Assembly: GCF_014243445.1 (NCBI RefSeq)
Contig: NZ_JACLQD010000002.1
Location: 186,001-250,000, forward strand
Length of the DNA: 64,000 nucleotides
Reading direction: 5' to 3'
Source: Paragemmobacter straminiformis
GTDB lineage: Bacteria; Pseudomonadota; Alphaproteobacteria; Rhodobacterales; Rhodobacteraceae
A program made the translations under genes and the position numbers. The notes under the pieces are model-generated. The model made no database searches and was not told where the DNA came from. It worked only from the letters and a program-made list of their open reading frames with translations. Below are positions 15,065-30,043 of the stretch, one piece after another (within the stretch, counting starts at the first letter, position 1; every line of letters begins with the position of its first letter).

Positions 15065-16237
15065 CTAGGCGGTGTCGCGCGCCGATATCGTGCGGGCGAC
15101 GGTGCGGGCGATCTTGCCTGCGACGATATCCCAGTCGAACCGCGTGGTGGCGCGGGCAAGGCCTGCATCGCCCAAGCGGCGGCGAAGGGGCGCATCGGTG
15201 CAAAGATCCTCCATCGCGCGGGCGAGGGCCGCGCTGTCGCCCGGCGGAAACAGCCGGCCTGTCACGCCCTCTTCGACGATTTCGTCAAGCGGGGGCTGGT
15301 CGGGGCAGAGGCAGGGCAGGCCCTGCGACATGGCCTCGATCAGCACATCGCCCCATGTCTCGAAGCGCGAGGCGATGACGAAGGCGTCCGAGCTGCGGAA
15401 CAGGCTGGCGAAGAGCGCGGGGTCGGGTGCCGCATGGACGGTGACGCCCTGTGGCAGGTCGGGCGGTGCATCTGCGGTGACCATGACCAGTTCCGCGAAA
15501 GGCTGGCGCGCGCGCAGGCGGCGGAAGGCATCGAGGACGATATCCCCGCCCTTGCGCAGGAAGGATTTGCCGACGAAGAGAAAGCGGACAGGGCGGTCGG
15601 GCGGGTTACGGTCGGCCGCTGCGGGCGGAAGCGGCAGGTTCGAGCCGCCGCCGACCACCTCGATCCGGTCCGGTGCGATGCCGTAATCGCCGGTGATGGC
15701 GTCGGCGACGAAGCGGCTGCGGACGCAGATGGCGGCAAGCCCCTCCATCGCGCGCTGTTCCTGTGCGATGCGCCGCGCGGACAAGGCACCGTCTAGCGGG
15801 TGGCGCAGGCGGTTGGCCAGACGGGCGGTCAGGGCTGTGGTGTAGTCGGTGTAGGTGATGACGGGCGCGCCGCCGGAATGGCGTGCGGCATCGAATTTCA
15901 GCCCGAAGGTCACGAAGCAATCGACCGGCGCGCCCTGCTGCCGGACCTTTGCCGCGAAGGCTTTGCCATAGGCGTCGAAGGTGGCGGGATGGCTGTAGAA
16001 GGTCTCGCGCCAGATGCGGGTGTCGGGGCGGAAGGCGCGGGCCATGCAGAGCGCGCGCCGCCATCCCCAGATGTCGACATCCCAGAACTCGACCTGCGGC
16101 AGGTGGCGGCGCAGGGCGGCGAAGGCCGAGCCGTATTTGACGCCTTGCAGACCCTTGGAGCTGCCCTGCACCAGCACGACCACGCGCCGCGCCGCGGTTG
16201 CAGGATCGCCATCGGGCAGGGCGGGGGGCTGCGACAT
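15065..16237 (-). CDS. GT4-family glycosyltransferase
   Basis: A 390-residue glycosyltransferase group 1 protein with GT-B fold. The C-terminal donor site is seen in VRFLFVGKSFLRKGGDIVLDAF and the E-x7-E motif in RFETWGDVLIEAMSQGLP. The N-terminal acceptor half begins VVVLVQGSSKGLQGVKYGSA. It is the last gene of a minus-strand run of four glycosyltransferases and follows the GT2 gene by five bases. A role in building an exopolysaccharide or capsule repeat unit is inferred from the flippase, Wzz-like and Wzy-like genes nearby. The sugar is unknown. Confidence 0.87.
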   Translation of the reverse strand: MSQPPALPDGDPATAARRVVVLVQGSSKGLQGVKYGSAFAALRRHLPQVEFWDVDIWGWRRALCMARAFRPDTRIWRETFYSHPATFDAYGKAFAAKVRQQGAPVDCFVTFGLKFDAARHSGGAPVITYTDYTTALTARLANRLRHPLDGALSARRIAQEQRAMEGLAAICVRSRFVADAITGDYGIAPDRIEVVGGGSNLPLPPAAADRNPPDRPVRFLFVGKSFLRKGGDIVLDAFRRLRARQPFAELVMVTADAPPDLPQGVTVHAAPDPALFASLFRSSDAFVIASRFETWGDVLIEAMSQGLPCLCPDQPPLDEIVEEGVTGRLFPPGDSAALARAMEDLCTDAPLRRRLGDAGLARATTRFDWDIVAGKIARTVARTISARDTA

Positions 16238-16242
16238 GGCCT

Positions 16243-17388
16243 TCAGTTCCTGACCGGATTCCAGAGGGTGCTGCGATGGCCCGCGACATAGCGGACCAGT
16301 CCGGCGGCCATTGCGGCGTTGGACATGGCGAAAAAGAAAAGCTGACGGACGAGCGGCAATTTGCGGAACGGCAGGAAAAGGGCGGCCGCAAGGATCACGG
16401 CGTAGCCCGCAAGCTGGAGGGTCGCGGCAAAGGCGTAGAACCCGCCCCGTCCGGCAAGGGCGAGATTGGCAAGACAGCAGACCAGCAGCAGGAAGGGTGT
16501 CAGGCGGCGCAGGAATTTATGCGAGAAAAGCTGCCAGGCGTAAAAGCCGTGGTTCAGCGGGTTCAGCAACTGCCGGTGCGCCATCAGCGCGCGCCATCCG
16601 CGTTCGGTCGAGCGGATGCGGCGGCCCATCTCGCGGCGGGCGCGTTCGGTCACCTGCTCGGTCGCGATCACGCGCGGATCGAAGGCGAGGCGGCTGCCCG
16701 AGGCCACGACGCGGACGGAATTGTAGAAATCGTCGGCGCAATCGTCGCGGAAGGGGGCCACGAACTCCTTGCGGATCGCGTAGAACGAGCCTTGGGCCGA
16801 GACCGCCCCGCCAAGCCGCGTTTCGGCGCGTTTGAGGGCCTGGTCATAGGTCCAGTAGAAGCCCTCGCCCTTGCCGATGGAGCCTGCCTTGGCGGTATCG
16901 ACGCGGATTTCGCCGCAGAGGCCGCCGATGGCCGGATCGGAGAAGCAGTCGGCCATCGCGGCAAGCGCGCCGGGCGCGACAAGGCTGTTGGCATCGGTGA
17001 AGATGACGATCTCGCCCGTTGCGAGCGGCAGGATGCGGTTGAGGGCGAGCGCCTTGCCGCTGCGGCCTTCGGGCACGACAAGCGTGACGCGGGGATCGGT
17101 GATCCGGCGCAGCTCGTCAACCGTGCGGTCGGTCGAGCCGTCGGAGACGACGACGACCTGCACGTCAAAGCCGCCCTCGTCGGCAAGGGCGAGGCAGTTC
17201 GCCACCTTGTCGCGGATGCAGGCTTCCTCGTTATGCGCGGCGACGAGGAAGGAAAACGAGGCCGGACGCGGGCCGGTCGGCTGCGCGTCGCGACCCAAGA
17301 GGCGGGCCAGCACCAGCAGGGCCAGCGGATAGCCCGCGATGACATAGACGAGCAGGGCAAGGCTGATCCAGAACAGGGCTGCGGTCAT
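16243..17388 (-). CDS. GT2-family membrane glycosyltransferase
   Basis: A 381-residue protein with an N-terminal membrane anchor, a GT-A catalytic domain and about three C-terminal membrane helices. Motifs in order: FLVAAHNEE, VVVVSDGSTDRT, IFTDANSLV, the acceptor region QGSFYAIRKE, and RRIRSTERGW in the place of the QxxRW motif. This architecture is that of processive or lipid-linked-sugar GT2 enzymes. Its start overlaps the stop of the GT4 gene before it (17385-17388), so the genes are coupled. Confidence 0.88.
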   Translation of the reverse strand: MTAALFWISLALLVYVIAGYPLALLVLARLLGRDAQPTGPRPASFSFLVAAHNEEACIRDKVANCLALADEGGFDVQVVVVSDGSTDRTVDELRRITDPRVTLVVPEGRSGKALALNRILPLATGEIVIFTDANSLVAPGALAAMADCFSDPAIGGLCGEIRVDTAKAGSIGKGEGFYWTYDQALKRAETRLGGAVSAQGSFYAIRKEFVAPFRDDCADDFYNSVRVVASGSRLAFDPRVIATEQVTERARREMGRRIRSTERGWRALMAHRQLLNPLNHGFYAWQLFSHKFLRRLTPFLLLVCCLANLALAGRGGFYAFAATLQLAGYAVILAAALFLPFRKLPLVRQLFFFAMSNAAMAAGLVRYVAGHRSTLWNPVRN

Positions 17389-18590
17389 CGGCTGTTCTCT
17401 TCTATCAGCCGCAGCAGGTCGGCGGCGTTGTTGTCGAGGTTGTATTCGTCAAGCACTTGCGCCCTGCCGCGCGCGGCAAGCGCCTGTGCCGCGGGGTAGG
17501 CGTCAAGGACCTGCGTGATGCGGGCGGCAAGGTCGGCGGCATCGCCGGGGGTGAAGAGAAAGCCGGTCTTGCCGTGCTGGACCAGTTCGGGAATGCCCGA
17601 CAGGCGCGAGGCGATGACGGGCGCTTCGGCGGCGAGGGCTTCCATCGAGACGACCGGAATGCCTTCGGAGCGGTTCAGGCTGTCGGTGATCGAGGGGATG
17701 ACGACGAGGTGGGCGGAATACATGGCGGCCTTGACCTCGGCCATCGTGGCCGGGCCGTGGAAGGTGACGCGGCCGGGCAGGGTGCGGGTGGCGAGCTGTT
17801 GCAACTGCGCCATTTCGGGGCCGCCGCCGTGAACGTTCAGGTGCCAGTCGGGCCGTGCGGCCAGACGGGCGAGGGCGTGCAGAAGGATGTCGACACCCTT
17901 GCGCGGCAAAAGGGCGCCGACGAAGGTGATGTTGAAATCCGTGTCCGCCGCCTTGGGCTGGCGTTCGGGGGCAGGGAAGCGGGCAGGATCGACGCCGCAG
18001 CGGATGACGCGCAGCTTGGCGCTGTCAAAGCCGGGGATGCGGGCGAGAAAATCGCGGTTGAAGTCGGAAATGGTGCGCACGAAGCGCGCCTTGCGGGATT
18101 TCTCGGCCAGCAGGCTTTGCGACACGAAGATGTCGTACATATGGGCCGAAAAGCTGAAGGGCAGGCCGGACAATTCCGCAGCAATCCATGCCGCCGTTGC
18201 CGGATGGGTGGCGAATTCGGCGTGGATATGGTCGATCCCTTCGGCCCGCGCATAGGCGGCGAGGGCTGCGGATTTGGGCAGGATGGCAAAGCTTTCGGCA
18301 AGGCGGCGCGGCTCGCGCCACATCTCGGCGACCAGTTTGGCGGTGATGGTCGCCATTCTGACCGGATGGCGCAGCAGGGCGGCCAGAAAGGGGCCAAGCG
18401 GCAGCCAGGGAAAGGTGAAGCCGCGCTCGACCACGGGCCGCGCCTCGTCATGGACGATTTCGGCGTGGCGGAAGGGTTTGAGGTGGAACACCCGCGCGTC
18501 ATGCCCTTGGCGCAGGTAATGCAGCACATTCGCGATGGCGAAGGTTTCGGTGATCTTGGGAAACTCGCTGACGACGACAAGGATTTTCAT
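17385..18590 (-). CDS. GT4-family glycosyltransferase (WcaL-like)
   Basis: A 401-residue GT-B glycosyltransferase that opens MKILVVVSEFPKITETFA, the start typical of colanic-acid WcaL/AmsK-type enzymes. It has DHIHAEFATHPATAAWI in the acceptor half, and FVGALLPRKGVDILLHAL and the E-x7-E motif EGIPVVSMEALA in the donor half. Both ends overlap neighbours by four bases. It probably adds one sugar of the repeat unit. Confidence 0.88.
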   Translation of the reverse strand: MKILVVVSEFPKITETFAIANVLHYLRQGHDARVFHLKPFRHAEIVHDEARPVVERGFTFPWLPLGPFLAALLRHPVRMATITAKLVAEMWREPRRLAESFAILPKSAALAAYARAEGIDHIHAEFATHPATAAWIAAELSGLPFSFSAHMYDIFVSQSLLAEKSRKARFVRTISDFNRDFLARIPGFDSAKLRVIRCGVDPARFPAPERQPKAADTDFNITFVGALLPRKGVDILLHALARLAARPDWHLNVHGGGPEMAQLQQLATRTLPGRVTFHGPATMAEVKAAMYSAHLVVIPSITDSLNRSEGIPVVSMEALAAEAPVIASRLSGIPELVQHGKTGFLFTPGDAADLAARITQVLDAYPAAQALAARGRAQVLDEYNLDNNAADLLRLIEENSR

Positions 18591-19732
18591 ATGTCCGCTC
18601 CGGCAAGGCGGCTTGGTCCCGTTGCGGGGGAGGGGGGAAGAAGGACGGAAAGGTATTGGTCGATGATGTGGTCGGTGTCGAAGCGGGCCAGCATGGCATC
18701 GGAGGCGGGCGGCAGCGGTCGGGCAAGGCTTTCGCGGATCGCCTCGGCAAGGGCGGGCGCGTCCCCCACGGGCACGAGCCTGCCCCAGCGCCCCTGTTCG
18801 AGGATTTCATCCGGTCCGGTCGGGCAATCGGTGGCGACGACCGGCGTGCCGACCGCCAGCGATTCGAGCAGAACGCCGGGCAGGCCCTCCCAGCGCGAGG
18901 ACAGGACGAAAAGATCGGCGGCGGCGAGTTCGACGGGCAGCGACGGGACGAAACCGGGAAGCGAGACGCGCGCGCCAAGGCCAAGGTCGTTCACCTGCGC
19001 CTGAAGCGCCGGGCGGTCGGGGCCTTCGCCAAAGATGACGAGCCGCGCGGGCGAGGTCTGCGCGAGAAGGGCGAAGGCGCGCAGGAGGGTGGGGAAATCC
19101 TTTTGCGGTGCAAGGCGCCCTGCGGCCACGAGGACCGGGGTTGTCCTGTCGCGCAGCCACGGATGGCGGGGCGGGGTTGCGGCCATGTCGCGCAGATGGC
19201 CAAGCGGCAGCGGGTTGTAGATCGTGCGGCGCCGGTCGGCGGGCAGGGCAAGGGCGGCGGCGAATTCGTCCTGCATGGCGCGCGAGACAAAGGTGACGCA
19301 GGCCGCACGCGGATAGAGCAGCCGCGCCAGCGCCCGCTTTGCCGCACGCTTCGCGCGGCTGCCCGATGCGAGCATCATGGTGATGCTGTTGTGTTCGGCC
19401 ACGACGATCCGCGGGGCGCCGCGCGCAAGACGGGCCGCGACGAGCGTGGCCAGATTGGCATGGGTCAGCGCCGACAGGACCGCATCGGGGCGATCGGTGC
19501 GGAAATGGCGGACCAGCGCCGGAATGGCGCGACCGAAGCGCGGCACGTCGAGGTCGAGAAGCCGGACCCCGGCCGAAAGATCGGCAAGGCAGGGGCCTTT
19601 GGCCTGACCTGCGATCATGGTCGTGTCAAAGCCGCGCGCTGCAAAGGCGTTGGCAAGGGTGACCATGATCCGTTCGGCACCGCCGCCTCCGAAATCGGGA
19701 AGCACGAGGGAAAGCTTTGGCGTCACCGCCAT
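18587..19732 (-). CDS. GT4-family glycosyltransferase
   Basis: A 381-residue GT-B enzyme with the glycine-rich N-terminus VLPDFGGGGAERIMVTLANA, donor-site VLVAAGRLAPQKDFPTLLRAF and E-x7-E motif WEGLPGVLLESLAVGTPVV. The ATG at 19732 is chosen because AGGA precedes it and the family begins there; the frame stays open upstream without family sequence. It heads the four-gene glycosyltransferase operon, with a GTTAA-N6-TTAAC dyad 55-70 bases upstream. Confidence 0.87.
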   Translation of the reverse strand: MAVTPKLSLVLPDFGGGGAERIMVTLANAFAARGFDTTMIAGQAKGPCLADLSAGVRLLDLDVPRFGRAIPALVRHFRTDRPDAVLSALTHANLATLVAARLARGAPRIVVAEHNSITMMLASGSRAKRAAKRALARLLYPRAACVTFVSRAMQDEFAAALALPADRRRTIYNPLPLGHLRDMAATPPRHPWLRDRTTPVLVAAGRLAPQKDFPTLLRAFALLAQTSPARLVIFGEGPDRPALQAQVNDLGLGARVSLPGFVPSLPVELAAADLFVLSSRWEGLPGVLLESLAVGTPVVATDCPTGPDEILEQGRWGRLVPVGDAPALAEAIRESLARPLPPASDAMLARFDTDHIIDQYLSVLLPPSPATGPSRLAGADI

Positions 19733-19786
19733 GATGGGTCCTGACACGAGACTACGATGCTTTTTCTGCAACGACAGGGGGGTGGT

Positions 19787-19802
19787 GTTAAAGTAAATTA
19801 AC
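19787..19802. promoter_or_regulatory. GTTAA-N6-TTAAC dyad (CtrA-like) before the glycosyltransferase operon
   Basis: GTTAAAGTAAATTAAC has perfect GTTAA and TTAAC arms, in an AT-rich gap within GC-rich DNA. The same arm sequence and spacing occur at 21524-21539 and 29648-29663. CtrA of Caulobacter binds TTAA-N7-TTAAC, one base wider. Confidence 0.5.
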
Positions 19803-19885
19803 AAATCCCGATGGTGATTTGCGCCCGAGTGTTGCTGCCGGATGCTGGAAAGTGCCGTTGCCGGGGCGGTATGCCGCACGACGCC

Positions 19886-21412
19886 TTATCGCTTTGCCCG
19901 TTCCTTGCGCCGGCGTGACGCAATTTTGAGCAGCATGCGGGCGGCCATGGTTTCGATGCCGTCCGGCTTTCCCCTGAGCTGCCAGATCAGCCAGAGCGTG
20001 CCGCAATAGGCGGCGAGGCCACCGGATCCGGCAGCGAGAAGCCGCAGAAGATGAAGCGGGTGCCAGCGTTGCGCGATATCGGGCATGGCCGCAAGGATCA
20101 GGCCGGAGGCGAGGCCGAGCATTGCCGTCGCTGTCGCGATGCGCAGGACGCCGGAGGCCACCTCGCGCCAGTTTCCGGTCACGTCGCGGGCCGCGACGAC
20201 GAAGGAATAGGCGCAGGAGACGGCCGTGGTCAGGACCACCGCCACGGCGACACCGCCAAGGCCGAAGGTCTGCGCGGCGAAGGCGACGCTGGGGATGAAC
20301 ACGGCCAGCCCGATGGCCTGACGCAGGGCCACGAGGCGGGTGTGGCCCGCCGCGAGGATCGAGCTTGCCGGTGCGGCGGCGGCGATGCCGAAAAGGGCGT
20401 TGGCGCTGAAGAGTTGCAGGAAGAAGGTCGTCGGCGCCCATGCCGCACCCAAGGCGAAGGACACGAGGTCTTTGGCACAGAGGGCGAGCAGCAGGCTTGC
20501 CGGTGCGCCGATCAGAAGTGCCGCCTGCGTGGCCGAGGACAGGGTTGCAAAGGCCAGCACGGCGCGCGCGCCTGCATCGTGGCGGTGGTCGTGGCTGACG
20601 AATTTCGAGAACAGCGCGACACGGAAGGCGCTGGCAAGTTCGGTCCCGATCAGTTCGGCCAGCATCTTTGCGAGGTAGTAGGGGCCAAGCGCCGCCGCAC
20701 CGGCGTATTTGCCGATCAGGAAGACATCGGCCCTGAGCAGGATCTGGAACAGGACGTTCTGCACCATGAGCCATGCCGAATGCTGGCCGATGTCGCCCAG
20801 TGTCGTAAGGCCCAGCCGCGGGCGGCGCGGGTGCATCATGTAGCTGACCAGCACATCGACCATCCGCTGCACGACATAGCCGATCACCACGGCCCAGAAG
20901 CTTTGCGTCAGGATGGCTATGACCACCGAAACGACAAGCGCCACGAGGCGGCTTGCCACGTTCGCGATGAACACCTTGCGGAAATCCATCTCTTTGAAGA
21001 ACTGCGCCATGCCGACGTTGACGAAGCCGCCGATGGCAAGCGACAGGGCCAGCAGGTAAAGCGGGGCGATGAGCTTGGGATCGCCGTAGAAAGCCCCGAT
21101 CCACGGCGCGCCAAGGGCAAGGCCCGTCCCGCAGAGCAGGCCACGGATGATCTGGAGCGTCCAAGCCGTGTCGTAAAGACCGTCGTCCTGATCGCGCGAA
21201 CGGATGAGCGAGAAGTTGACCTTCATGTCGGTGATCGCCTCGACGAAGAGGACGATGCTCATCACGAGGACCGCATGGCCAAAGTCGGCGGGCAGGAGGA
21301 TGGCCGAAAGCACCATCGTCCGCCCCACGCCGAGGGCGCGCGCGACCCAGCGGGAGCCGACAAGCCAGCCAACCGCCCGGCCAAGGGGGCGCTCTGCCGT
21401 TCCATCGTTCAC
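19886..21412 (-). CDS. Oligosaccharide flippase (Wzx/MOP family)
   Basis: About 508 residues with 12-14 membrane helices and the features of the polysaccharide-specific MOP/Wzx branch (SRWVARALGVGRTMVLSAILLP, FGHAVLVMSIVLFVEAITDMK). It should move lipid-linked repeat units across the inner membrane. No ATG lies near the N-terminus: I use the GTG at 21412 with GGGGA eight bases before it; a TTG at 21433 is the alternative. It is separated from the glycosyltransferase operon by 153 bases and is divergent from the Wzz/Wzy-like genes. Confidence 0.85.
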   Translation of the reverse strand: MNDGTAERPLGRAVGWLVGSRWVARALGVGRTMVLSAILLPADFGHAVLVMSIVLFVEAITDMKVNFSLIRSRDQDDGLYDTAWTLQIIRGLLCGTGLALGAPWIGAFYGDPKLIAPLYLLALSLAIGGFVNVGMAQFFKEMDFRKVFIANVASRLVALVVSVVIAILTQSFWAVVIGYVVQRMVDVLVSYMMHPRRPRLGLTTLGDIGQHSAWLMVQNVLFQILLRADVFLIGKYAGAAALGPYYLAKMLAELIGTELASAFRVALFSKFVSHDHRHDAGARAVLAFATLSSATQAALLIGAPASLLLALCAKDLVSFALGAAWAPTTFFLQLFSANALFGIAAAAPASSILAAGHTRLVALRQAIGLAVFIPSVAFAAQTFGLGGVAVAVVLTTAVSCAYSFVVAARDVTGNWREVASGVLRIATATAMLGLASGLILAAMPDIAQRWHPLHLLRLLAAGSGGLAAYCGTLWLIWQLRGKPDGIETMAARMLLKIASRRRKERAKR

Positions 21413-21523
21413 GGCCGGGTTCCCCGTTTGCAACCGGATGCCACTTTTTGCGCCTTTTGGACCATGCCGACACGAATTCGGCAGCGTTACAGACCGAGGG
21501 AGTCACCTCGATTAAATTTGTAT

Positions 21524-21539
21524 GTTAAGCAAGTTTAAT
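21524..21539. promoter_or_regulatory. GTTAA-N6-TTAAT dyad (CtrA-like) between flippase and beta-helix genes
   Basis: GTTAAGCAAGTTTAAT differs from the other two sites only in the last base. An additional TTAA lies at 21512-21515. The site sits 112-127 bases before the flippase start and 74-89 bases before the beta-helix start, so it could serve both divergent promoters. Confidence 0.45.
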
Positions 21540-21612
21540 AGATATATTTCAGGTGATTTCGAGGGGGATCGTAGCGGTGTTGAAGGTGTTGGGCAAAGTG
21601 GCAGGCGGCCGG

Positions 21613-22521
21613 ATGCGGCGGTTTGCGACCTTCGCGGCTGTGGTATCCGTTTTTGCGGGGACAGTCGTGCCTGACGGTGCCACGGCAGGGCCATTCGGCA
21701 GTTTTGGCGGGGCATCCTGCGCGCAGCTCGCAATGCCGAGGGTGCCTGCCTACAAGCGGGTGGTGCGTGATCTCGACGTGACGCGCACGCTCGACATCGA
21801 GGGGCCGGAGTGGAACGACACGCTGGTTCTGGGCTGCAACGTCCACAAGGTGCGGGGCGACGGTATCCGCATCCGCAACGTGCGCAACCTGACGATCCGT
21901 GGCTGCCATATCAGCGACATCAAGGGGGTGGGGATATTGCTGCGCTCCACGGGCGGCACCTCGGGTGTGTGGCTGGTGGACAACCTGATCGAAGGCACGG
22001 ATTCCGACGGGATCGCCGCCGCGCAGCGGGCCGAGGACGGGGTTGACCATACCGGCCTTGTGATCGGCTGGAACCGGATCGACACGACCGGACGGCGCGG
22101 CCATGACGGACGCCAGCACGGGATCTATTCGCAAGCCTCGGACGCGGTGATCGTGTCGAACAGGATCAGCGGCCCGCGCGAGGGCAACGGCATTTCCGTG
22201 CGCAGCTCCTCGCTTGTGGCCTGCAACACGGTGTCGGGCACCTCGCGCGATGACAAGCCGGGCATCCGCTATTACGCGGACCATGTGACGGGGCCGTCAA
22301 AGGCGCTGATCATCCGGGGCAACAGGGTGACGGGGTCGTCGGTCGGGATCGACATCATGGACCCGCCGGGGCGCAATGCGGACCGGATGGATGACATCGT
22401 GCGGTCGGTCGAAGTGACCGGAAACCGTTCGGAACGCTTCGTCCTGACCATCGCGCATTTTTGGCTGAAGAATAAACTTATCAAGCTGTTGCAGAAGAAT
22501 AATGAAGAAATCCAGAAGTAG
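21613..22521 (+). CDS. Secreted right-handed beta-helix protein of the polysaccharide locus
   Basis: About 302 residues. An N-terminal signal sequence (RRFATFAAVVSVFAGTVVP) is followed by repeated short beta rungs: IRIRNVRNLTIRGCHISDI, VWLVDNLIEGTDSDGI, VIVSNRISGPREGNGI, LIIRGNRVTGSSVGI. These fit a parallel beta-helix (pectate-lyase-like) fold, often a polysaccharide lyase, epimerase or binding protein. I use the ATG at 21613 because it starts the signal peptide; a GTG at 21553 is possible. The 3' end overlaps the Wzz-like gene by 20 bases. Enzymatic activity is not shown by any clear active-site motif. Confidence 0.75.
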   Translation: MRRFATFAAVVSVFAGTVVPDGATAGPFGSFGGASCAQLAMPRVPAYKRVVRDLDVTRTLDIEGPEWNDTLVLGCNVHKVRGDGIRIRNVRNLTIRGCHISDIKGVGILLRSTGGTSGVWLVDNLIEGTDSDGIAAAQRAEDGVDHTGLVIGWNRIDTTGRRGHDGRQHGIYSQASDAVIVSNRISGPREGNGISVRSSSLVACNTVSGTSRDDKPGIRYYADHVTGPSKALIIRGNRVTGSSVGIDIMDPPGRNADRMDDIVRSVEVTGNRSERFVLTIAHFWLKNKLIKLLQKNNEEIQK

Positions 22522-23827
22522 TCTCTTCGACCGTTCCAATGAAACGGCAGCGCTTGCCGACAAGGCGGCCGCGTTGCGCATACAGGCGGCGCGTGCCTAT
22601 CCCGCGCCGGATGCCGCAGCCAACCGCGCCGCCGAGGCCGTGCCGCTGCGTGCGCCCCAGCCTGTTGCCAACCGCCCGCCCAAGCCTGTTGCCAACCGTC
22701 CGTCCGAGCCTGTCGCCCTGCGCCCGCCCGCAGGGGGCGAGACAAGCCCCGCAGCGGGCCGCTTTCCGCCGCTGGCCCCGCCCGACGACCGGGCCGGGGA
22801 CGAACCGCTGTTCGACTTTGGCGGGTTTCTGGCATGGTTCAACCGTGCCAAGCTGTGGATCGCGCTGTCCTGCGCCGCCGTCGGGCTTGCCGGATTTCTT
22901 ATGGCGCGGCAGGACATGCAAAGCAGCCCCGTGTTCACGAGTGCGACGGACATCCAGATCTTTCCCGGTGACCTGCAACTGGAATTCGCGCGCAAGGCGC
23001 TGGGCGGGTCGCGCGATGCGCAGACGGCATCGGTCGTGCGCAGCCTGACCGAGGAATTGACCGGCGATGGCGTGCTTGCCCGCGCCGTCGAGATCGCCTT
23101 TGCGGAGCGGCCCGCGCCCGAGGTTGCCGCCAAGCGCAAAGGTCCGCTGTCACGCTGGTCGGAATGGCTGAACTACGGGCAGTTGCCCGAGGCGGCGGCT
23201 GATCCGCTGGCCCCCTATCGCGAGGCGTTGACGATCGATTCCATCGACGGCTCTTTCGTGATGCGGATTTCGGCGTCGATGGGTGATCCGCAAAGCGCCG
23301 CCGATCTGGCGAATGCGGTCTATGCCGCCTATTCGGAGCGGCGCATGGCCGCGCGGGACGAGGCACGAGAGGCGTTGCGCGCGAGCTATGCCGCCAAGAT
23401 CGAGGATGCGCGCGAGGAACTGGATGCGCTGATCCGGCGCGAGATCGAACTGGACCGCGAGGTTGCGCCGGCCGCGCCGGTTGCGGCGGCGGGGGCAGGG
23501 GCAGCGGCGGCAGTTGCGGCTGCCCCTTCGGTGAAGGCGGTGGCCGAATTGCGGGCGAACCTGCAGAATCAGGATGCCTTGGTGCGGTCGATCGGCGCGC
23601 TGCGAAGCGAGCTTGTCACGCGCGAGATCGACAATACCAACCTTGGCGGCGATGCATCGGTGCTGCGCAGGGCGGTGCCCCCGGTCGTGCCGGACGGGGC
23701 GACGCCGCTGATGACGGGCTTTGCCTATGCGGTCGGCTTCTTCCTGTTCCTGATCGGCGTGCTTGTGCTTGGATCTTCGGGGTCGGCGCTGGCGCGGCGC
23801 ATGACGAAAGCGGGCGCGAAGCGGTGA
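22502..23827 (+). CDS. Wzz/GumC-like chain-length determinant family protein
   Basis: A 441-residue inner-membrane protein. The N-terminal 100 residues are disordered, with four eight-residue Pro-rich repeats. A first membrane helix (about 119-137, LWIALSCAAVGLAGFLMA) leads into a periplasmic domain with coiled-coil segments (AAKIEDAREELDALIRREIELD) and a final helix (about 405-425). This is the polysaccharide co-polymerase layout. No C-terminal tyrosine kinase is attached. The stop overlaps the next start (GTGA). It probably sets polymer length together with the Wzy-like protein. Confidence 0.8.
   Translation: MKKSRSSLFDRSNETAALADKAAALRIQAARAYPAPDAAANRAAEAVPLRAPQPVANRPPKPVANRPSEPVALRPPAGGETSPAAGRFPPLAPPDDRAGDEPLFDFGGFLAWFNRAKLWIALSCAAVGLAGFLMARQDMQSSPVFTSATDIQIFPGDLQLEFARKALGGSRDAQTASVVRSLTEELTGDGVLARAVEIAFAERPAPEVAAKRKGPLSRWSEWLNYGQLPEAAADPLAPYREALTIDSIDGSFVMRISASMGDPQSAADLANAVYAAYSERRMAARDEAREALRASYAAKIEDAREELDALIRREIELDREVAPAAPVAAAGAGAAAAVAAAPSVKAVAELRANLQNQDALVRSIGALRSELVTREIDNTNLGGDASVLRRAVPPVVPDGATPLMTGFAYAVGFFLFLIGVLVLGSSGSALARRMTKAGAKR
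22634..22729 (+). repeat. Four 24-bp tandem repeats inside the Wzz-like gene
   Basis: Four in-frame units encode EAVPLRAP, QPVANRPP, KPVANRPS and EPVALRPP. The middle two are nearly identical at DNA level. They lie in the cytoplasmic tail and could vary in number by slippage. Confidence 0.75.
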
Positions 23828-25257
23828 CGCGCGGGCGGGCGGAAGGACAGTCGGGGGCGGGGGTGGCCGTCGTTCTGGCGCTTTTCGCCGGTCTGTGGCT
23901 GGGGCTTGCGGCAGCGGTTTCGGCGGTGCTGGGCATCGCGCGTGCGGATGCCGCGCCTGCGGTGGTGCTGGCCCCCTTTGCCCTTGCCGGACTGGCAAGC
24001 CTGCGCTGGCCGCATCGGGCCGTGCCGATGCTGCTGCCGGGGCTTCTGGTGTTCTTCAAGGTCAACGATGCCCTTGCCGAAACGGTGGGCGGCACGGTCA
24101 CCAACGATACGCTGGCCGCAGCCCTTGCGCTGTGGCTGCTGTTCCGGCTTGGCCGTGACCAGCTGATCGAGACGGTTCTGGCGGGGCGGCTGTTCCTTAT
24201 TCTGCTGGCCGGTCTGGCGGGGGTGCTTCTGGTGTCGTCGATCAATGCCGTGGACCGGGCGCAAAGTCTTGCCACGAGTGCCATCTTTGGCAAGGATGTC
24301 GCCCTTGCCATCCTGCTTGCGCTTTCGATCCGGACGCGGCGGGATCTGGATGCGCTGATCGACTGGCTGATCCTTTCGACGGCCTTTTGCGCCGTGATCA
24401 TCCTTTACGACACGATGCAGGGTGCGCCGCTGTTCCCCGGCGACAAGATCGCGACATGGCAAGGGGCGCTGAGGTCGAGCGGGGCTTCGACCGAATCCGT
24501 GCCGGATGTGGCGGCCCTGATCCTGATGGGGACGATCCTTGCCGGAACCAATGCCGCCCGCAAGGCAAGGGGGCGCTGGCTGCATATCGGGGCGGCGATC
24601 CTTGGGGTGGCGGCGGTTCTGGCCACGATCAGCCGCGCGCCCTTTGCGGCGCTGCTGGTCATGGCGGGGCTGTTTCTCTATCGCCACCGCCACGAGGCCT
24701 ATTTCGCGAAAGCCGTGAGCCTGTCGCTGGCGACGCTTCTGGTCGCGGTGCTGACCTTGGCGCAGCCTGTCATCTCGAAGTTCGGAGCGGTCGCCGCGCC
24801 GTCCGAGGACCGGACCGTGGCACGTCGGCTGAGCTATCAGGAGATCGGGATCGACCTGTTCGGACAGGCACCCTTCCTCGGGATCGGGGCGGGCAACTAT
24901 GCGGTCCATTTCGCCTCGGACGAGTACCGCTTTGTCGGGGGGCGCGGCAGCGAGGCGCGGCCGTTGCACAACATCTACCTGCAATATGCCACCGAAACCG
25001 GACTTCTGGGTTTCGGCTATTTCATCGGGCTGGTGGGGGCCATCGCTGCAACGCTGCTGCGGGGCACGCGCAGCGGCGAGGAGACGATCGCCGGACAGTC
25101 CGAGGGGTTGTTGCTTGCGCATATCTCGATCTGCGCGCTGCTTCTGGCGCTGTCGTCGAAATCCTTCCTTGGCCTGTGGCTGCTGGTCGGCTTTTCCATC
25201 GCCCTTGCGCGGTTGATGCGCAAGCACGGGCCGCCGGGCGGGGCGTTGCAGCCCTGA
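23824..25257 (+). CDS. O-antigen ligase/Wzy-like polymerase
   Basis: A 477-residue protein with about 12 membrane helices and a large periplasmic loop near the C-terminus (QEIGIDLFGQAPFLGIGAGNYAVHF, then RPLHNIYLQYATETGLLG). The His-Asn element with the GxGxGNY loop is the Wzy_C/O-antigen ligase signature. A GTG start overlaps the Wzz-like stop (GTGA at 23824-23827). It should polymerise or ligate the lipid-linked units exported by the flippase. Polymerase and ligase cannot be told apart from sequence. Confidence 0.85.
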   Translation: MTRGRAEGQSGAGVAVVLALFAGLWLGLAAAVSAVLGIARADAAPAVVLAPFALAGLASLRWPHRAVPMLLPGLLVFFKVNDALAETVGGTVTNDTLAAALALWLLFRLGRDQLIETVLAGRLFLILLAGLAGVLLVSSINAVDRAQSLATSAIFGKDVALAILLALSIRTRRDLDALIDWLILSTAFCAVIILYDTMQGAPLFPGDKIATWQGALRSSGASTESVPDVAALILMGTILAGTNAARKARGRWLHIGAAILGVAAVLATISRAPFAALLVMAGLFLYRHRHEAYFAKAVSLSLATLLVAVLTLAQPVISKFGAVAAPSEDRTVARRLSYQEIGIDLFGQAPFLGIGAGNYAVHFASDEYRFVGGRGSEARPLHNIYLQYATETGLLGFGYFIGLVGAIAATLLRGTRSGEETIAGQSEGLLLAHISICALLLALSSKSFLGLWLLVGFSIALARLMRKHGPPGGALQP

Positions 25258-25260
25258 GCG

Positions 25261-26136
25261 TCAGGCCGCGAGGAAGGTGACGCCTTCCATCTGGCGGATG
25301 CGGGTGATGTCGCGCTGGTAGCCGCTGTTCAGATCATCGAGCAGGGATTCGTCCCAGCCGGGAAGTTCGAATTCGGTTTCGATCTGGTCGGGCAGGGCGA
25401 ATTTGTCGAGGAAGGCCGAGACGATCCGCCGCCGCTGCGCGACCGAGCTGGGCGGGTTGGAGGAGAGATAGCCGTTCATCCGCGTCAGCCCCTCGGGCGA
25501 CATGATGCTGGTCAGCAGTTCGTCGGTTTCGGCAAGCTGGGTGTCGGGGGCGTGGCCCGAGACGTTCTGCAACACCTCGGGCCATATCAGGGGGGTGTCC
25601 TCGTCGCACCAGATGGTGAGCGGGGCGTCGGGGTTGAGGGTGCGGATCTCTTCGACCATGCGGCTCCAGCTGAGGGCGCGCGGGTCGGCGGTGCCGATGA
25701 ATTCCTCGTAGGGTTTGCCGCGCTGCTTGGCAAAGAGGGCGGGCAGGAAGCTGGCCGGATTGCGGATGGCAAGGTGGAACTCGGCCTCGATCTCGGGGAA
25801 GATCTGGGTAAAGGCGCGGATGCGTTCGCCTGCGGCAGGGTAAAGGCGGCGGTCGCGGATCGCCCATTGCGGATAGGAGAGGAAATTGTCCCATGACAGG
25901 ATCAGCCTGTCGGCGCGGTCCTCGTCCATGATCTGGTCAAGGACAAGCGCCTGCGTGTCGCGCGATGCGGCGCGGCCCTTGAGCGTGATCGCCGTGTCGC
26001 GCAGGAGCGCGCGGTAGCGGGTGGGGCCGGGGACCACGATGCCCTGATGGCCGAGCGTGGCGCGGTTCTTCCACAGGCAGCGGATGAGACGTTCCTCATC
26101 TGTGCAATGGGCGCCGAGGTGATACACGATACGCAT
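25261..26136 (-). CDS. Hypothetical protein with sulfotransferase-like N-terminus
   Basis: A 291-residue soluble protein. It starts MRIVYHLGAHCTDEERLIRCLWKN, a pattern (HLGAHKTG-like) resembling the nucleotide-loop region of sulfotransferase-like proteins in marine Rhodobacterales. Conserved-looking segments include FHLAIRNPASFLPALFAKQRG and RMVEEIRTLNPDAPLTIWCDED. I do not recognise a named family with certainty. It is convergent with the Wzy-like gene (three bases between), so modification of the polysaccharide is possible but unproven. Confidence 0.6.
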   Translation of the reverse strand: MRIVYHLGAHCTDEERLIRCLWKNRATLGHQGIVVPGPTRYRALLRDTAITLKGRAASRDTQALVLDQIMDEDRADRLILSWDNFLSYPQWAIRDRRLYPAAGERIRAFTQIFPEIEAEFHLAIRNPASFLPALFAKQRGKPYEEFIGTADPRALSWSRMVEEIRTLNPDAPLTIWCDEDTPLIWPEVLQNVSGHAPDTQLAETDELLTSIMSPEGLTRMNGYLSSNPPSSVAQRRRIVSAFLDKFALPDQIETEFELPGWDESLLDDLNSGYQRDITRIRQMEGVTFLAA

Positions 26137-26226
26137 GGATGACTGTTCTGCCGTCTGCCCGTTTCTTGGCCCTGACTATACGGGCTTTTCTGGACAGGGA
26201 AACCGCTTTCGGCTAGATCGCCTGAC

Positions 26227-27885
26227 ATGATGTCCGACCAAAACACTCAAGTTAGGGGCGCGTGGCAGGGGGTCCGGCTGGATGGCTGGTCGCTCGGGGC
26301 TGCGCTGATTGCCATTGTGGTGCTGGCGCCGATGGTGGCGGTGGTCTGGATCGCCTTTCATCCGACCGAGAACATCTGGCCGCATCTGCTGGCGACGGTC
26401 TTGCCGCGCTATTTCACCACGACGCTGACGATGATGCTGGGCGTGGGGGTGCTGACGGCGGCGATCGGGACGGGGGCGGCGTGGCTGGTGGTGATGTACC
26501 GCTTTCCGGGGCGGGGCTGGCTGGACCATGCGCTGCTGTTTCCGCTGGCGATTCCGGCCTATGTCGGGGCCTTTGCGCTGGTGGATTTCCTGCAATATGC
26601 GGGGCCGGTGCAGACAGGGCTGCGCGCGGCGATGGGCTGGCAGACGGCGCGGGACTACTGGTTCCCCGAGGTGCGGTCCGAGGGCTTTGCCATTCTGGTG
26701 CTGGCCTTTGCCTTTTACCCCTATGTCTACCTGCTGGCCCGTGCCGCCTTCCGCGAGCAATCGGGCTGTTCCTACGAGGTGGCGCGGGCGCTGGGTGCGG
26801 GCCCCTGGGGGCTGTTCCTGCGCGTGGGCCTGCCGCTTGCGCGGCCTGCGGTGGCGACGGGGGTGGCGCTGGTGCTGATGGAGACGGTGGCCGATTACGG
26901 CACGGTCACCTATTTCGGCGTGCAGACGCTGACGACGGGCGTGTTCTCGACCTGGCTCAACGGCAACAACGCGGGCGGGGCGGCACAGATCGCGGGGGTG
27001 ATGCTGGTGCTGATCTTCCTGCTGGTCGCGACCGAACGCATCAGCCGCCGCCGCGCGCGCTTTCACCGCCAAAGCCGCGCCTCGCGCCCTGTGGCGCCGC
27101 TGGCGCTTGAGGGCGGGCAGGCGTGGCTTGCCACGGGGTTGTGCCTGCTGCCCTTTGGTCTGGGGTTCGTCCTGCCTGTGGCGGTGATGCTGGTGCATGC
27201 CTTTGCGGCACCCGGCGTGTGGCTGGCGCCCGGGCTGGGCGAGGCCTTGGGCAACACGCTTTTCGTGGGCGGGGTCGCGGCCCTTGTGACGGTGGGGGCG
27301 GCGGTGTTCCTTGTCTACGGGGTGCGGATGGCGGGGCGCGGGCTGGCGCGGGTGGTGCTGCCGCTGACGACGCTGGGCTATGCGGCGCCGGGCGCGGTGC
27401 TGGCGGTGGGGATCCTCATTCCGCTGGCGGCTTTGGACAACCGTGTCGCCGATGCGGTGCTGGCGCTGACGGGGCATGATCCGGGGTTGATCATGACGGG
27501 CACCTCGGGGGCGCTGATCCTTGCCTATGCGGTGCGGTTCTTCGGCATCGCGCAGGGGGCGGTGGATGCGGCCTTCGGGCGGGTCTCGCCGTCGCTGCCG
27601 ATGGCGGCGCGGTCCTTGGGGCGGTCGGCGGGAGGGGCGCTGCGGGCGGTCTACCTGCCGTTGATGCGCGGCTCGGTTGCGACGGCGCTGCTGGTCGTTT
27701 TCGTCGATTGCGTAAAGGAATTGCCCGCGACGCTGCTGTTGCGGCCGTTCAACTACAACACGCTGGCAACACGGGTGTTCGAGCTTGCCAGTCTTGAGCG
27801 CCTGTCCGAGGCGGCCCCCGCCGCGCTGATGGTCATGGCCGTGGGCCTGTGCGCCGTGGCACTGCTGGCACGGGCGAACCGCTAG
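26227..27885 (+). CDS. FbpB-type iron(III) ABC permease, lone gene
   Basis: A 552-residue permease with two tandem BPD_transp_1 halves and about 12 membrane segments. The EAA loops read YEVARALGAGPWGLFLRVGLPLARP (first half) and SLPMAARSLGRSAGGALRAVYLP (second half). The double-length single-chain design is that of Fbp/Sfu/Afu ferric-iron importers (also thiamine/phosphonate types). No binding protein or ATPase is beside it, so it must work with parts encoded elsewhere. The start may be 26227 or the next ATG at 26230. Confidence 0.85.
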   Translation: MMSDQNTQVRGAWQGVRLDGWSLGAALIAIVVLAPMVAVVWIAFHPTENIWPHLLATVLPRYFTTTLTMMLGVGVLTAAIGTGAAWLVVMYRFPGRGWLDHALLFPLAIPAYVGAFALVDFLQYAGPVQTGLRAAMGWQTARDYWFPEVRSEGFAILVLAFAFYPYVYLLARAAFREQSGCSYEVARALGAGPWGLFLRVGLPLARPAVATGVALVLMETVADYGTVTYFGVQTLTTGVFSTWLNGNNAGGAAQIAGVMLVLIFLLVATERISRRRARFHRQSRASRPVAPLALEGGQAWLATGLCLLPFGLGFVLPVAVMLVHAFAAPGVWLAPGLGEALGNTLFVGGVAALVTVGAAVFLVYGVRMAGRGLARVVLPLTTLGYAAPGAVLAVGILIPLAALDNRVADAVLALTGHDPGLIMTGTSGALILAYAVRFFGIAQGAVDAAFGRVSPSLPMAARSLGRSAGGALRAVYLPLMRGSVATALLVVFVDCVKELPATLLLRPFNYNTLATRVFELASLERLSEAAPAALMVMAVGLCAVALLARANR

Positions 27886-27910
27886 GCCAAAGGCCGGAAC
27901 ATCAGGGAAA

Positions 27911-27986
27911 TGGTGCCCCCAGCAGGACTTGAACCCGCGACCCCCTGATTACAAATCAGGTGCTCTACCAGCTGAGCTATAGAGGC
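27911..27986 (-). tRNA. tRNA-Thr (anticodon TGT)
   Basis: A 76-base cloverleaf on the minus strand: acceptor GCCTCTA pairs with TGGGGGC, D arm GCTC/GAGC, anticodon arm CCTGA-TTTGTAA-TCAGG with TGT, T arm GCGGG-TTCAAGT-CCTGC, discriminator A and an encoded CCA. It reads ACA and, by wobble, other Thr codons. It lies between the lone permease and the EPS-type genes; no duplicated 3' end (attachment site) was noticed. Confidence 0.95.
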
Positions 27987-28051
27987 GTGGGCAGGGATGT
28001 AGCCCTATTGCGGCAAGCCTGCAAGAGGAAGGCGCGGGGTGGGGGGCGACG

Positions 28052-28798
28052 TTACACTTTCGGATCGGCCTGCGGGGAACCCCGGCGCGCATAGAGGACG
28101 GCGGTGCAAGCGGCGAGTGAGACCATCAGCAGTTCGCCGCCGTCCTCGATACGCCCCAACGCCTGCCGGAGCAGTTTGACAAGATGATCGTTCCGGTCGA
28201 ACACGATCTTCGTGACGGAATGGATCAGGTCCATGCCGACGGCAAAGAAGACCAGACCCGCAAAGACGAGGGCAAAGACGAGGTAGATGCCCAGTTCGTC
28301 CTTTTGCATGCGCAACAGACACCATGCGAGAGGGGGCAGGAACAGGATGCCGGCGATGCCCCAGGCGACAAGTTCGCCGATGTCTTCTGCGCCCTTCGAC
28401 AGGCCATATCTTTGCAGGCTATGTTCGATCACCTCTCCGAGGCGTTCGTGATACGAAAAGGAGTCGTCGAAGGTGATGAAGCCGAAGAGCAATGCGAAGA
28501 AGAGGAAAGCCTTTTTTCCGGTTTTGCCGAACGAGTAGAGGCAGGCCGCAGCACAGATGAATTCGACGACATACATGAAGATTTCGGGCAGCGCCCCGTC
28601 CTCGGTCAGAGAGAACATGTGGTCTGCCGGCATGCGGACACCCTCGGCGCGGAACAGGTCGCGCAGGACGGTCAGTCCCAGAAGCAGCAGCGCCGCCCCC
28701 ATGATGACCAGAAAAGCGTTGCGGCAAGCACGGTCGTTGCGCAATTGCGCGCGCATTTGCGCGAGTTCCGATTTCAACCCGTTGTAATAGGAGAGCAT
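28052..28798 (-). CDS. Multi-helix membrane protein of the sugar-transferase operon
   Basis: A 248-residue protein with about six membrane helices (for example FLVIMGAALLLLGLTVL, AAACLYSFGKTGKKAFLFFALLFGFITF, ILFLPPLAWCLL). A charged segment DDSFSYHERLGEVIEHSLQ stands between helices. The start at 28798 follows GAAGGG. It is 53 bases downstream of the ExoY-like sugar transferase on the same strand, probably the same operon. No domain name can be given; a role in export or in regulation of polysaccharide synthesis is possible. Confidence 0.72.
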   Translation of the reverse strand: MLSYYNGLKSELAQMRAQLRNDRACRNAFLVIMGAALLLLGLTVLRDLFRAEGVRMPADHMFSLTEDGALPEIFMYVVEFICAAACLYSFGKTGKKAFLFFALLFGFITFDDSFSYHERLGEVIEHSLQRYGLSKGAEDIGELVAWGIAGILFLPPLAWCLLRMQKDELGIYLVFALVFAGLVFFAVGMDLIHSVTKIVFDRNDHLVKLLRQALGRIEDGGELLMVSLAACTAVLYARRGSPQADPKV

Positions 28799-28851
28799 CC
28801 GATGCCCTTCGCCACGGCCCGCCGCACCGGCGGGCGTGAGCCGGAGCCGGA

Positions 28852-29550
28852 TCATACTCCCGTGCGGCGGACGAGGGCGACGAGGGCGGTGTCGAACAGC
28901 ACCCGGATGTCGCCGCGCAGGGATTTGGAGGCGATGTAGTCCAGATCGATCTTGCAGCGCTCGACGAAATCGGTCGGCTTGTCGCGCATCACCTGCCATG
29001 TTCCGGTTATGCCCGGACGCACGGCGAGACGGGCGCGCTGCCACGGTTCGAGGTGCTGGGGCGGGCAGGAATTGGCGCGAGGGCCGACAAAGGACATGTG
29101 GCCGCAGATCACGTTCCAGATCTGGGGCAGTTCGTCGAGATAGGTCTTGCGCATCCAGCGGCCCGGACGGGTGATGCGCGGGTCGTCCTTCATCTTGAAG
29201 CCCGCCGCCTGCGCGAGGGGCTGGCCGCAGAGGTCGGCTTTCAGGCTTTCGGCATCCGGCACCATCGTGCGCATCTTGACGATGCGGAAGGGCTTGCCGT
29301 CCTTGCCGTAGCGGGTTTGCAGAAAGAAGGCGGGCGCACGCGGATTGTCGAGTTTGACAACCAGAAAGAGAATGATTACCAATAAGGCAATGGCGGGCAG
29401 CGCTACGATGGCAATGGCCAGATCGAAGGCGCGGTACTTGAACGACAGGCCCGTGTCGGGGCGGCCCACAGGCGGGCTTCGCTTGGCGCTTGCCGAACGG
29501 CCGGGGCTTACGCCCTTGCTTTGAAAACGATCCCCCGGGAAATAGACCAT
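28852..29550 (-). CDS. Undecaprenyl-phosphate sugar phosphotransferase (ExoY/PssA type)
   Basis: A 232-residue initiating sugar transferase. One membrane segment (about 46-68) follows KYRAFDLAIA. The catalytic domain has QTRYGKDGKPFRIVKMRTM, DDPRITRPGRWMRKTYLDELPQ, NVICGHMSFVGPR and RPGITGTWQV. In VGPR-A the usual Pro after Arg is Ala. It has only the C-terminal catalytic unit, like ExoY, not the long WbaP form. It should start repeat-unit assembly by moving a sugar phosphate to undecaprenyl phosphate. The start at 29550 has GGAG seven bases before. A perfect 16-bp palindrome lies about 98 bases upstream. Confidence 0.9.
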   Translation of the reverse strand: MVYFPGDRFQSKGVSPGRSASAKRSPPVGRPDTGLSFKYRAFDLAIAIVALPAIALLVIILFLVVKLDNPRAPAFFLQTRYGKDGKPFRIVKMRTMVPDAESLKADLCGQPLAQAAGFKMKDDPRITRPGRWMRKTYLDELPQIWNVICGHMSFVGPRANSCPPQHLEPWQRARLAVRPGITGTWQVMRDKPTDFVERCKIDLDYIASKSLRGDIRVLFDTALVALVRRTGV

Positions 29551-29647
29551 CGCAGACTCCGGCCAATAGATACGTGGCGCTCCAAGGCTGTGGCAGAGCC
29601 TTTGAGCGGTGGTGAAATGCAGCCTTGGACCCATACCTTTGGGCGTA

Positions 29648-29663
29648 GTTAATACGTATTAAC
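29648..29663. promoter_or_regulatory. Perfect 16-bp palindrome GTTAATACGTATTAAC (CtrA-like)
   Basis: A perfect palindrome with TTAA-N6-TTAA geometry, 98-113 bases before the ExoY-like start. It is the best of three matching sites in polysaccharide promoters (the others are at 19787 and 21524). Confidence 0.55.
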
Positions 29664-29974
29664 GTAACGAAAGACTTGTCTACGCTTTCGACACAATTTG
29701 GTCATATTTCTTTTGGTCCGGACGACTTATCCACCGTTTTGCAACCTTTTGGTGAGGTTCACAGGCAAAAATGGCCTATTTGCGAGAGTCCGATCTGCCT
29801 TTGTTTTGCCATAATTCGCGCGGCCCGTTCGCAAACCGCCTCGTTTTTCGCCATCTGCGGGCTTCGGGCCGCAAGGGGGCTGCGGAAGGCGGGACTGATT
29901 CGCCGCGCTTTCGAAAGGTGGCGGGCCGGCCATCTTTCGGGTGTTTGCGGACTTGACAGACCCGATCCGAAACT

Positions 29975-29986
29975 GACCAATTGGTC
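29975..29986. promoter_or_regulatory. Palindrome GACCAATTGGTC before the peptide importer
   Basis: A perfect 12-bp palindrome 58-69 bases before the binding-protein start. The ACCAATTGGT core is of a type used by GntR/FadR-like repressors, but no such regulator is adjacent. Candidate operator by position only. Confidence 0.35.
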
Positions 29987-30043
29987 TACATCATGGTCGG
30001 GCCGATGCAGCCTGCCGGACAAAATCCTGACGGGGAGTCATTC

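Follow-up and report, generated by a model that had tools for sequence, protein, structure and literature searches.

Paired TTAA boxes with a six-base spacer upstream of exopolysaccharide and other surface genes in Paragemmobacter straminiformis: candidate operators of one response regulator, possibly CtrA

Three copies of the dyad GTTAA-N6-TTAA(C/T) lie ahead of genes for exopolysaccharide (EPS) synthesis in a 64-kb stretch of the 4.12-Mb genome of Paragemmobacter straminiformis, a member of the Rhodobacteraceae. This stretch, the window in what follows, covers positions 186,001 to 250,000 of contig NZ_JACLQD010000002.1 (G000:C9:186001-250000 in our labels, where G000 is the organism's own genome and other G labels are comparison genomes). 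Are the three dyads read by the same protein, does the reach of that protein end with the EPS genes, and is it CtrA, whose canonical box holds seven bases between its TTAA words? A first-pass annotation of the window had proposed a single regulator for the EPS locus, perhaps CtrA. The shared operator turned out to be well supported and its reach wider than the locus; CtrA as the reader is plausible but unproven. Judged from sequence, it is very probable that a single regulator, be it CtrA or another, reads all three sites as a common operator. The sites and one additional box, none with an assigned strand, are as follows.

Site 1, 19787..19802: GTTAAAGTAAATTAAC, GTTAA-N6-TTAAC, 54 bases ahead of the start of the first glycosyltransferase gene (minus strand)
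Extra box, 21512..21515: single TTAA word upstream of site 2, from the TTAA word scan
Site 2, 21524..21539: GTTAAGCAAGTTTAAT, GTTAA-N6-TTAAT, between the divergent flippase (minus strand) and beta-helix (plus strand) genes
Site 3, 29648..29663: GTTAATACGTATTAAC, a perfect palindrome with the full GTTAA-N6-TTAAC, 13 or 97 bases ahead of the ExoY-like start (minus strand)

A motif scan placed the three dyads, with the same arms and the same six-base spacing, where the first-pass annotation had put them, and the window has no other match to GTTAA-N6-TTAAY (mean of 0.00 in 100 dinucleotide shuffles). The full GTTAA-N6-TTAAC is restricted to sites 1 and 3, since site 2 ends in T. The window has a GC content of 67%, and such AT-rich matches are indeed rare in it: the whole 64 kb holds 11 TTAA words, six of which make up the boxes of sites 1 to 3, with a seventh at position 21512, just upstream of site 2. 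The step from this extra box to the first box of site 2 is 13 bases and thus off a 10-base phase. All three sites are spaced by six and not by the canonical seven bases, one base narrower than the CtrA box as had been noted, and TTAA-N7-TTAA has no match in the window. The distances between sites and genes vary because several start codons are possible: site 1 lies 54 bases from the ATG at 19732, site 2 lies 13, 37 or 73 bases from the beta-helix starts at 21553, 21577 and 21613 and 90, 111 or 207 bases from the flippase starts at 21433, 21412 and 21316, and site 3 lies 13 or 97 bases from the ExoY-like starts at 29634 and 29550. The distances first given, 55-113 bases and, for the flippase, 112-127 bases, therefore hold for some alternative starts but not for others. 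A promoter and terminator scan of positions 19600-30000 gave nothing above shuffled sequences.

Such dyads were also counted over the whole genome. GTTAA-N6-TTAAY occurs at eight places, three of them in the EPS locus, and its reversed-string control at none. Relaxed to bare TTAA words, the pair is found at 21 places with a spacing of six (hereafter N6) and at 14 places with a spacing of seven (N7). Spacings from 1 to 20 together give 71 places, so that about 36 fall to the remaining 18 spacings, 2.0 on average (any start that has two partners was possibly counted once). Against these other spacings, the Poisson tails are 6e-15 for a spacing of six and 3e-8 for a spacing of seven, and the two form separate peaks. 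The binomial probability that at least three of 20 N6 places fall within the 14.6-kb EPS stretch is 5e-5, a post hoc value, as the locus was chosen for having sites.

The genes next to these places also differ between the two spacings. Surface-related neighbors were found for 15 of the 20 N6 places (a double site being counted once) and for 3 of the 14 N7 places (Fisher p = 0.003), with labels assigned unblinded; three of the 15 labels (PT-rich, Gly-rich, and sulfotransferase-like) were given by the look of the sequence without a Pfam match, and that of C9:973166 by its neighbors. The N6 places outside the EPS locus are listed here, the first three within a Tad-pilus cluster on contig C14.

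C14, Tad cluster: ahead of a TPR protein just upstream of the prepilin peptidase
C14, Tad cluster: ahead of a TadG-like protein
C14, Tad cluster: 81 bases ahead of CpaB
C14:85108: ahead of a Hint/Ig secreted protein
C15:13686: between an RTX protein and a glycosyltransferase
C10:492022: ahead of a cadherin-like adhesin
C10:534375: ahead of a porin
C10:49120: ahead of a glycosyltransferase family 2 gene and a divergent GtrA-like gene
C10:45101/45111, double site: ahead of a PT-rich secreted protein
C10:119225: ahead of a Gly-rich secreted protein
C13:130628: ahead of a sulfotransferase-like protein (by eye)
C9:973166: near a glycosyltransferase and a sulfotransferase-like gene
C10:59789: ahead of a response-regulator protein
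C9:689696: 120 or about 174 bases, depending on the start codon, ahead of a LuxI-type autoinducer synthase
C9:99362, C9:943149, and C11:9692: no clear neighbors

On the other side of the first Tad-cluster site, 461 bases away, lies an MdoG periplasmic-glucan gene, and the LuxI-type synthase matches PF00765 with 44.4 bits (cut-off 24). Among the neighbors of N7 places are genes for a CckA-like hybrid kinase, a glycosyltransferase, an H-type lectin, and an RTX protein, but many of these places are without a clear promoter; the spacers of most of the 14 strict N7 places are GC-rich. It is well supported that the reach of one regulator would extend past the EPS locus to Tad pili, adhesins, a porin, glycosyltransferases, and the LuxI-type synthase.

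If the sites are functional, how well are they kept in relatives? For the Hint/Ig protein, a search of 19 genomes of the genus returned 30 loci, comprising 11 close orthologues, 8 paralogues, and 11 one-domain matches. N6 sites are present upstream of 9 of the 11 close orthologues (at least 66% identity) and 6 of the 8 paralogues (47-49% identity), and in none of the 11 one-domain loci; N7 is absent from all 30. The 20 sites counted correspond to 15 distinct ones, five having been counted twice in overlapping loci. Upstream DNA was compared for 10 out of 19 Hint/Ig loci: eight carry TTAA-N6-TTAA at nearly equal distance with differing spacers, and two lack it. A second set of 29 loci was assembled for the ExoY-like gene by protein similarity alone, regardless of the motif, and includes one paralogue from the organism's own genome. 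Nine N6 sites occur in eight of these loci (0.53 expected from the own-genome rate), all upstream of the sugar transferase frame and 232-288 bases from the first ATG in six loci (252 in L055) and 129-165 bases in two. The six share the flank that follows the site and the other two share their distance, so that the number of independent groups is about two, which does not suffice for a formal test. None of the eight loci is orthologous to the ExoY-like gene of the window, and the N6 sites are kept between species. By eye, the strict motif in relatives of the genus precedes GT25-like, GT2-like, and sulfotransferase-like genes, porin, Tad, and secreted-protein genes, and also genes without a visible surface role. 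Sites at the Tad and PT-rich proteins are found in both G000 and G013.

The anatomy of the sites bears on the kind of protein that may read them. From 46 sites, hand-picked, like a further set of 25, for a clear gene direction, we derived, in the direction of the gene, the consensus (G/A)TTAA(Y)-A-W-W-N-R-TTAAC-A, whose outer G and C partly reflect how some of the sites were found. At the center of the spacer, N6 sites have about 87% A+T, and strict N7 sites are rich in GC, a comparison of 71 N6 and 14 N7 sites from loci partly fetched for holding one or the other and not a genome census. In many N6 sites, the outer bases are not mirror images of each other. The boxes point one way relative to the gene in 33 of 46 sites and in 17 of 24 gene families (p = 0.064), which is a tendency only. 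In G000 and G013, the gene for the PT-rich secreted protein is preceded by three boxes, each exactly 10 bases from the next, and in G007 a GT25-like gene is preceded by five; such phased arrays would favor head-to-tail binding by a winged-helix response regulator.

We considered the three sites as operators of one response regulator of the OmpR/PhoB family, with CtrA itself, the leading candidate, as the reader, a reading we hold tentatively and at a little less than even confidence. A ctrA gene is present (NF045991, 431.9 bits, cut-off 350), as it is in 17 of the 19 genus genomes. As in the CtrA sites of Caulobacter and R. sphaeroides, tandem TTAA half-sites stand shortly upstream of gene starts. 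Published sites include several with the shorter spacing: TTAA-N6-TTAA is given for the Caulobacter ctrA-P2 promoter (PMC3751295; PMC11264516) and for podJ P1 (PMC4287350), sites 2 and 3 of Caulobacter pilA have a 6-bp spacing, and in an Agrobacterium pilin promoter one pair is spaced by 6 bp and another by 7 (both PMC11264516). In R. sphaeroides, the proposed CtrA sites of flgB2p and fliI2p, with elements 6 bp apart, were tested by mutagenesis (PMC6180460). The non-canonical spacing thus lowers the case for membership of the CtrA regulon but does not exclude it, since 6-spaced CtrA sites have been published. For Ruegeria KLH11, the recognition region of CtrA is stated to be identical to that of Caulobacter (PMC3692519). 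In Dinoroseobacter, luxI2/R2, cckA, and a Tad pilus gene are among the predicted CtrA targets (PMC6473078), a likeness to the N6 sites at Tad and LuxI-type genes here. When the N6 matrix was given one inserted base, the ctrA promoter element ranked first in 17 of 17 loci.

Several observations weigh against this assignment. The promoter of ctrA itself reads NTAA-N7-TTAA in all 17 genus genomes with a match (GTAA in 13) and never N6; the 17 ctrA loci contain no N6 site, only about 0.3 being expected. Under the N6 matrix with an inserted base, any N7 pair of TTAA words would score high, and the likeness of the ctrA spacers is mostly a matter of composition (mean of 4.8 for shuffled ctrA spacers against 5.9). 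The difference in spacer composition between N6 and N7 sites suggests two readers, and strict N7 sites mostly lie near other kinds of genes than N6 sites. The ExoY-like loci also contain three N7 sites. The published record is itself divided: PMC4287350 writes ctrA-P2 as TTAA-N7-TTAA, contrary to the two sources above. As for the counts, the reversed word AATT is commoner than TTAA (331 against 71 for spacings 1-20, 61 against 35 for six and seven together), probably because it is the commoner word overall, and in several relatives strict GTTAA-N6-TTAAC does not exceed its reversed control (for example, 3 against 4 in G002 and 0 against 2 in G008). The case for the operator is independent of the AATT excess because it rests on spacing, position, and neighbors and not on raw counts. 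Compared with the described CtrA sites, the 6-bp class is here the commoner one and differs by its AT-rich spacer, its arrays at 10-bp steps, and its presence at EPS and adhesin genes, while ctrA keeps 7 bp; the published CtrA motif of Dinoroseobacter and Rhodobacter, TTAAC-N5-GTTAAC, has seven bases between the TTAA words (PMC7232146). In sum, the N6 operator class is a real, rather broad form of the CtrA-type TTAA-repeat site, which CtrA or another regulator may read.

The same facts can be arranged around a different OmpR/PhoB-family protein, which would read the 10-bp-phased boxes and run a sessile-lifestyle regulon while CtrA keeps its 11-bp sites. The two separate spacing peaks, the differing spacers, the invariably N7 promoter of ctrA, and the arrays suited to head-to-tail binding would all be accounted for, and candidates exist: besides ctrA, the 17 Trans_reg_C matches include a protein nearest to TorR (258.8 bits, cut-off 275), one we labeled ChvI-like, and a divergent one. 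No candidate stands out, however. The 17 fetched OmpR-family loci contain no N6 site (only 0.28 expected) and thus no sign of self-regulation, a comparison of DNA-binding domains, for which the program had taken several reading frames from the wrong strand, singled out none, and CtrA is reported to accept a 6-bp spacing. We regard this alternative as possible but unlikely. In its most explicit form, a master regulator of the sessile state in this genus, distinct from CtrA, would read GTTAAY boxes at 10 bp, and one base (10 against 11) would set its surface, EPS, pilus, and adhesin genes apart from the CtrA regulon; this, too, is possible but unlikely. A further locus, L149 (G000:C10:182278-182511), encodes a protein with two apparent membrane segments (by eye) and a C-terminal winged helix that resembles Trans_reg_C but falls slightly short of the Pfam cut-off, possibly a membrane-anchored regulator.

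A dimeric regulator that reads inverted repeats in a 16-bp geometry, either an AccR-like member of the TetR family or one of the CRP/FNR type, is rather improbable. Site 3 is a perfect palindrome, the direction preference described above is weak, and AccR, a TetR-family repressor of Streptomyces, has GTTAA-N6-TTAAC as its published operator (PMC10933834, a review), the 16-base consensus in S. avermitilis being identical to that of sites 1 and 3. Next to the three-box site in G000 and G013, there is also a divergent gene that reads as TetR family by sequence; it adjoins RND efflux genes, which are more likely its targets (by eye). A two-fold dimer is hard to reconcile with arrays in which three to five boxes follow each other every 10 bp, and with the many sites whose outer bases are not mirrored. 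AccR acts on acyl-CoA genes in an actinomycete, and in the available part of the review no arrays are described for it. The CRP/FNR palindrome geometry was dropped in favor of tandem binding on the phased arrays.

Very improbable is the reading without any specific regulator (chance, AT-rich promoter DNA, or binding sites for a silencer of the H-NS or MucR type), for although AT-rich DNA is common upstream of surface genes, it is largely refuted by the exact 10-bp spacing, a peak of 21 sites against about 2 expected, and the positions conserved in relatives. MucR targets carry 10-11 bp repeats of T (PMC8857273), and MucR/Ros sites resemble the present ones in the control of EPS and surface genes and in periodic T tracts. 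The genome differs in lacking any ROS_MUCR match at E 0.001, with a positive Caulobacter control; H-NS-like proteins were not searched for. CenR, an envelope regulator of R. sphaeroides, also binds a tandem repeat of about one helical turn at envelope targets, but its published operator, TGA-N8-TGA (PMC9275681), has a different half-site and does not match the three sites when compared by eye.

Under the preferred reading of a tandem-binding OmpR/PhoB-family regulator, possibly CtrA, phosphorylated monomers would line up head to tail, each contacting one (R)TTAA(Y) box through the major groove, while the AT-rich spacer would present its minor groove. The gene-proximal box would lie near the -35 region, where the regulator could recruit or block RNA polymerase. 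EPS assembly (ExoY-like starter, flippase, polymerase, and glycosyltransferases), Tad pili, adhesins, and the LuxI-type signal gene would then be switched together. The EPS genes of the window are the following.

15065-16237, 16243-17388, and 17385-18590, minus strand: further glycosyltransferases, following the first on the same strand
18587..19732, minus strand: the glycosyltransferase whose gene comes first after site 1 (PF13692 and PF00534 among its Pfam matches)
19886..21433, minus strand: polysaccharide flippase (PF13440, 177.8 bits)
21553..22521, plus strand: right-handed beta-helix protein (PF13229)
22502..23827, plus strand: open frame grouped with Wzz in the first-pass annotation, without a family match (Pfam searched at E 0.001, NCBIfam at E 1e-8)
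23824..25257, plus strand: Wzy-type polymerase or ligase (PF04932)
28852..29634, minus strand: ExoY-like initiating sugar transferase (PF02397, 183.5 bits; TIGR03025 match below cut-off)

A tRNA-Thr(tgt) at 27911-27986 separates the EPS cluster from its ExoY-like gene. The beta-helix gene matches only one of the 19 genus genomes, namely its own, and none of the 18 others; it has no match in the contigs of named genomes, a set that possibly does not contain the own genome. The lack of a match in the other 18 and the position of the tRNA gene may hint at an acquired island. The ExoY-like gene shows at most 46% identity to proteins elsewhere in the genus, and all matches of the flippase on plasmids are below 60% identity. 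Further along the window, an Rfam PYLIS_3 match (61050-61149, 40.6 bits, threshold 38) lies within an MttB-family gene (59970-61532) and probably reflects shared coding sequence and not pyrrolysine use. At the CckA-like hybrid kinase gene mentioned above (L096, G000:C9:525150-529150), the N7 site stands 40 bases upstream; the protein scores 450 bits to NF046020, below the cut-off of 1000.

Box arrays were also sought outside the genus. A three-box scan of the family gave 29 places in 22 of 198 genomes and about 75 places for the reversed string (hand sum), so that it yields individual cases and not enrichment. Two of these cases, each in another genus of the family, are an array 44 bases ahead of a Wzz-type protein (L278, G041) and one 131 bases ahead of a GalU-like sugar nucleotidyltransferase (L288, G095). 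A near-identical three-box 10-bp array, TTAATCAAC(C/T)TTAACAAGAATTAA, occurs with close forms in six genera of the Rhodobacteraceae (G030, G048, G053, G075, G081, and G217). In four of the five loci viewed (L276, L284, L286, and L287, but not L292), it adjoins a frame of tandem repeats like GDAVEAFTSWSGPT, which we would guess to be a multi-core peptide precursor. A four-box scan of named genomes returned at least 120 stretches, apparently mostly from AT-rich and unrelated organisms among the 80 listed, and was not used as evidence. In the open-access literature, the strings TTAAN6TTAA and GTTAA-N6-TTAAC led only to Caulobacter CtrA and cell-cycle papers and to actinomycete antibiotics. Among the matches listed for EPS regulators of Rhodobacterales and Rhodobacteraceae (titles and abstract openings, mostly open-access), there was no description of an N6 regulon.

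Through about 20 candidate operators across the genome, a single switch would govern EPS, Tad pili, adhesins, and a LuxI-type signal. Should CtrA be the reader of the N6 sites, its regulon in these bacteria includes surface attachment by way of a shorter spacing class that scans with the 7-bp motif would miss; if it is not, an unrecognized surface regulator exists. With either reader, half-site spacing as the separator of two overlapping regulons becomes testable.

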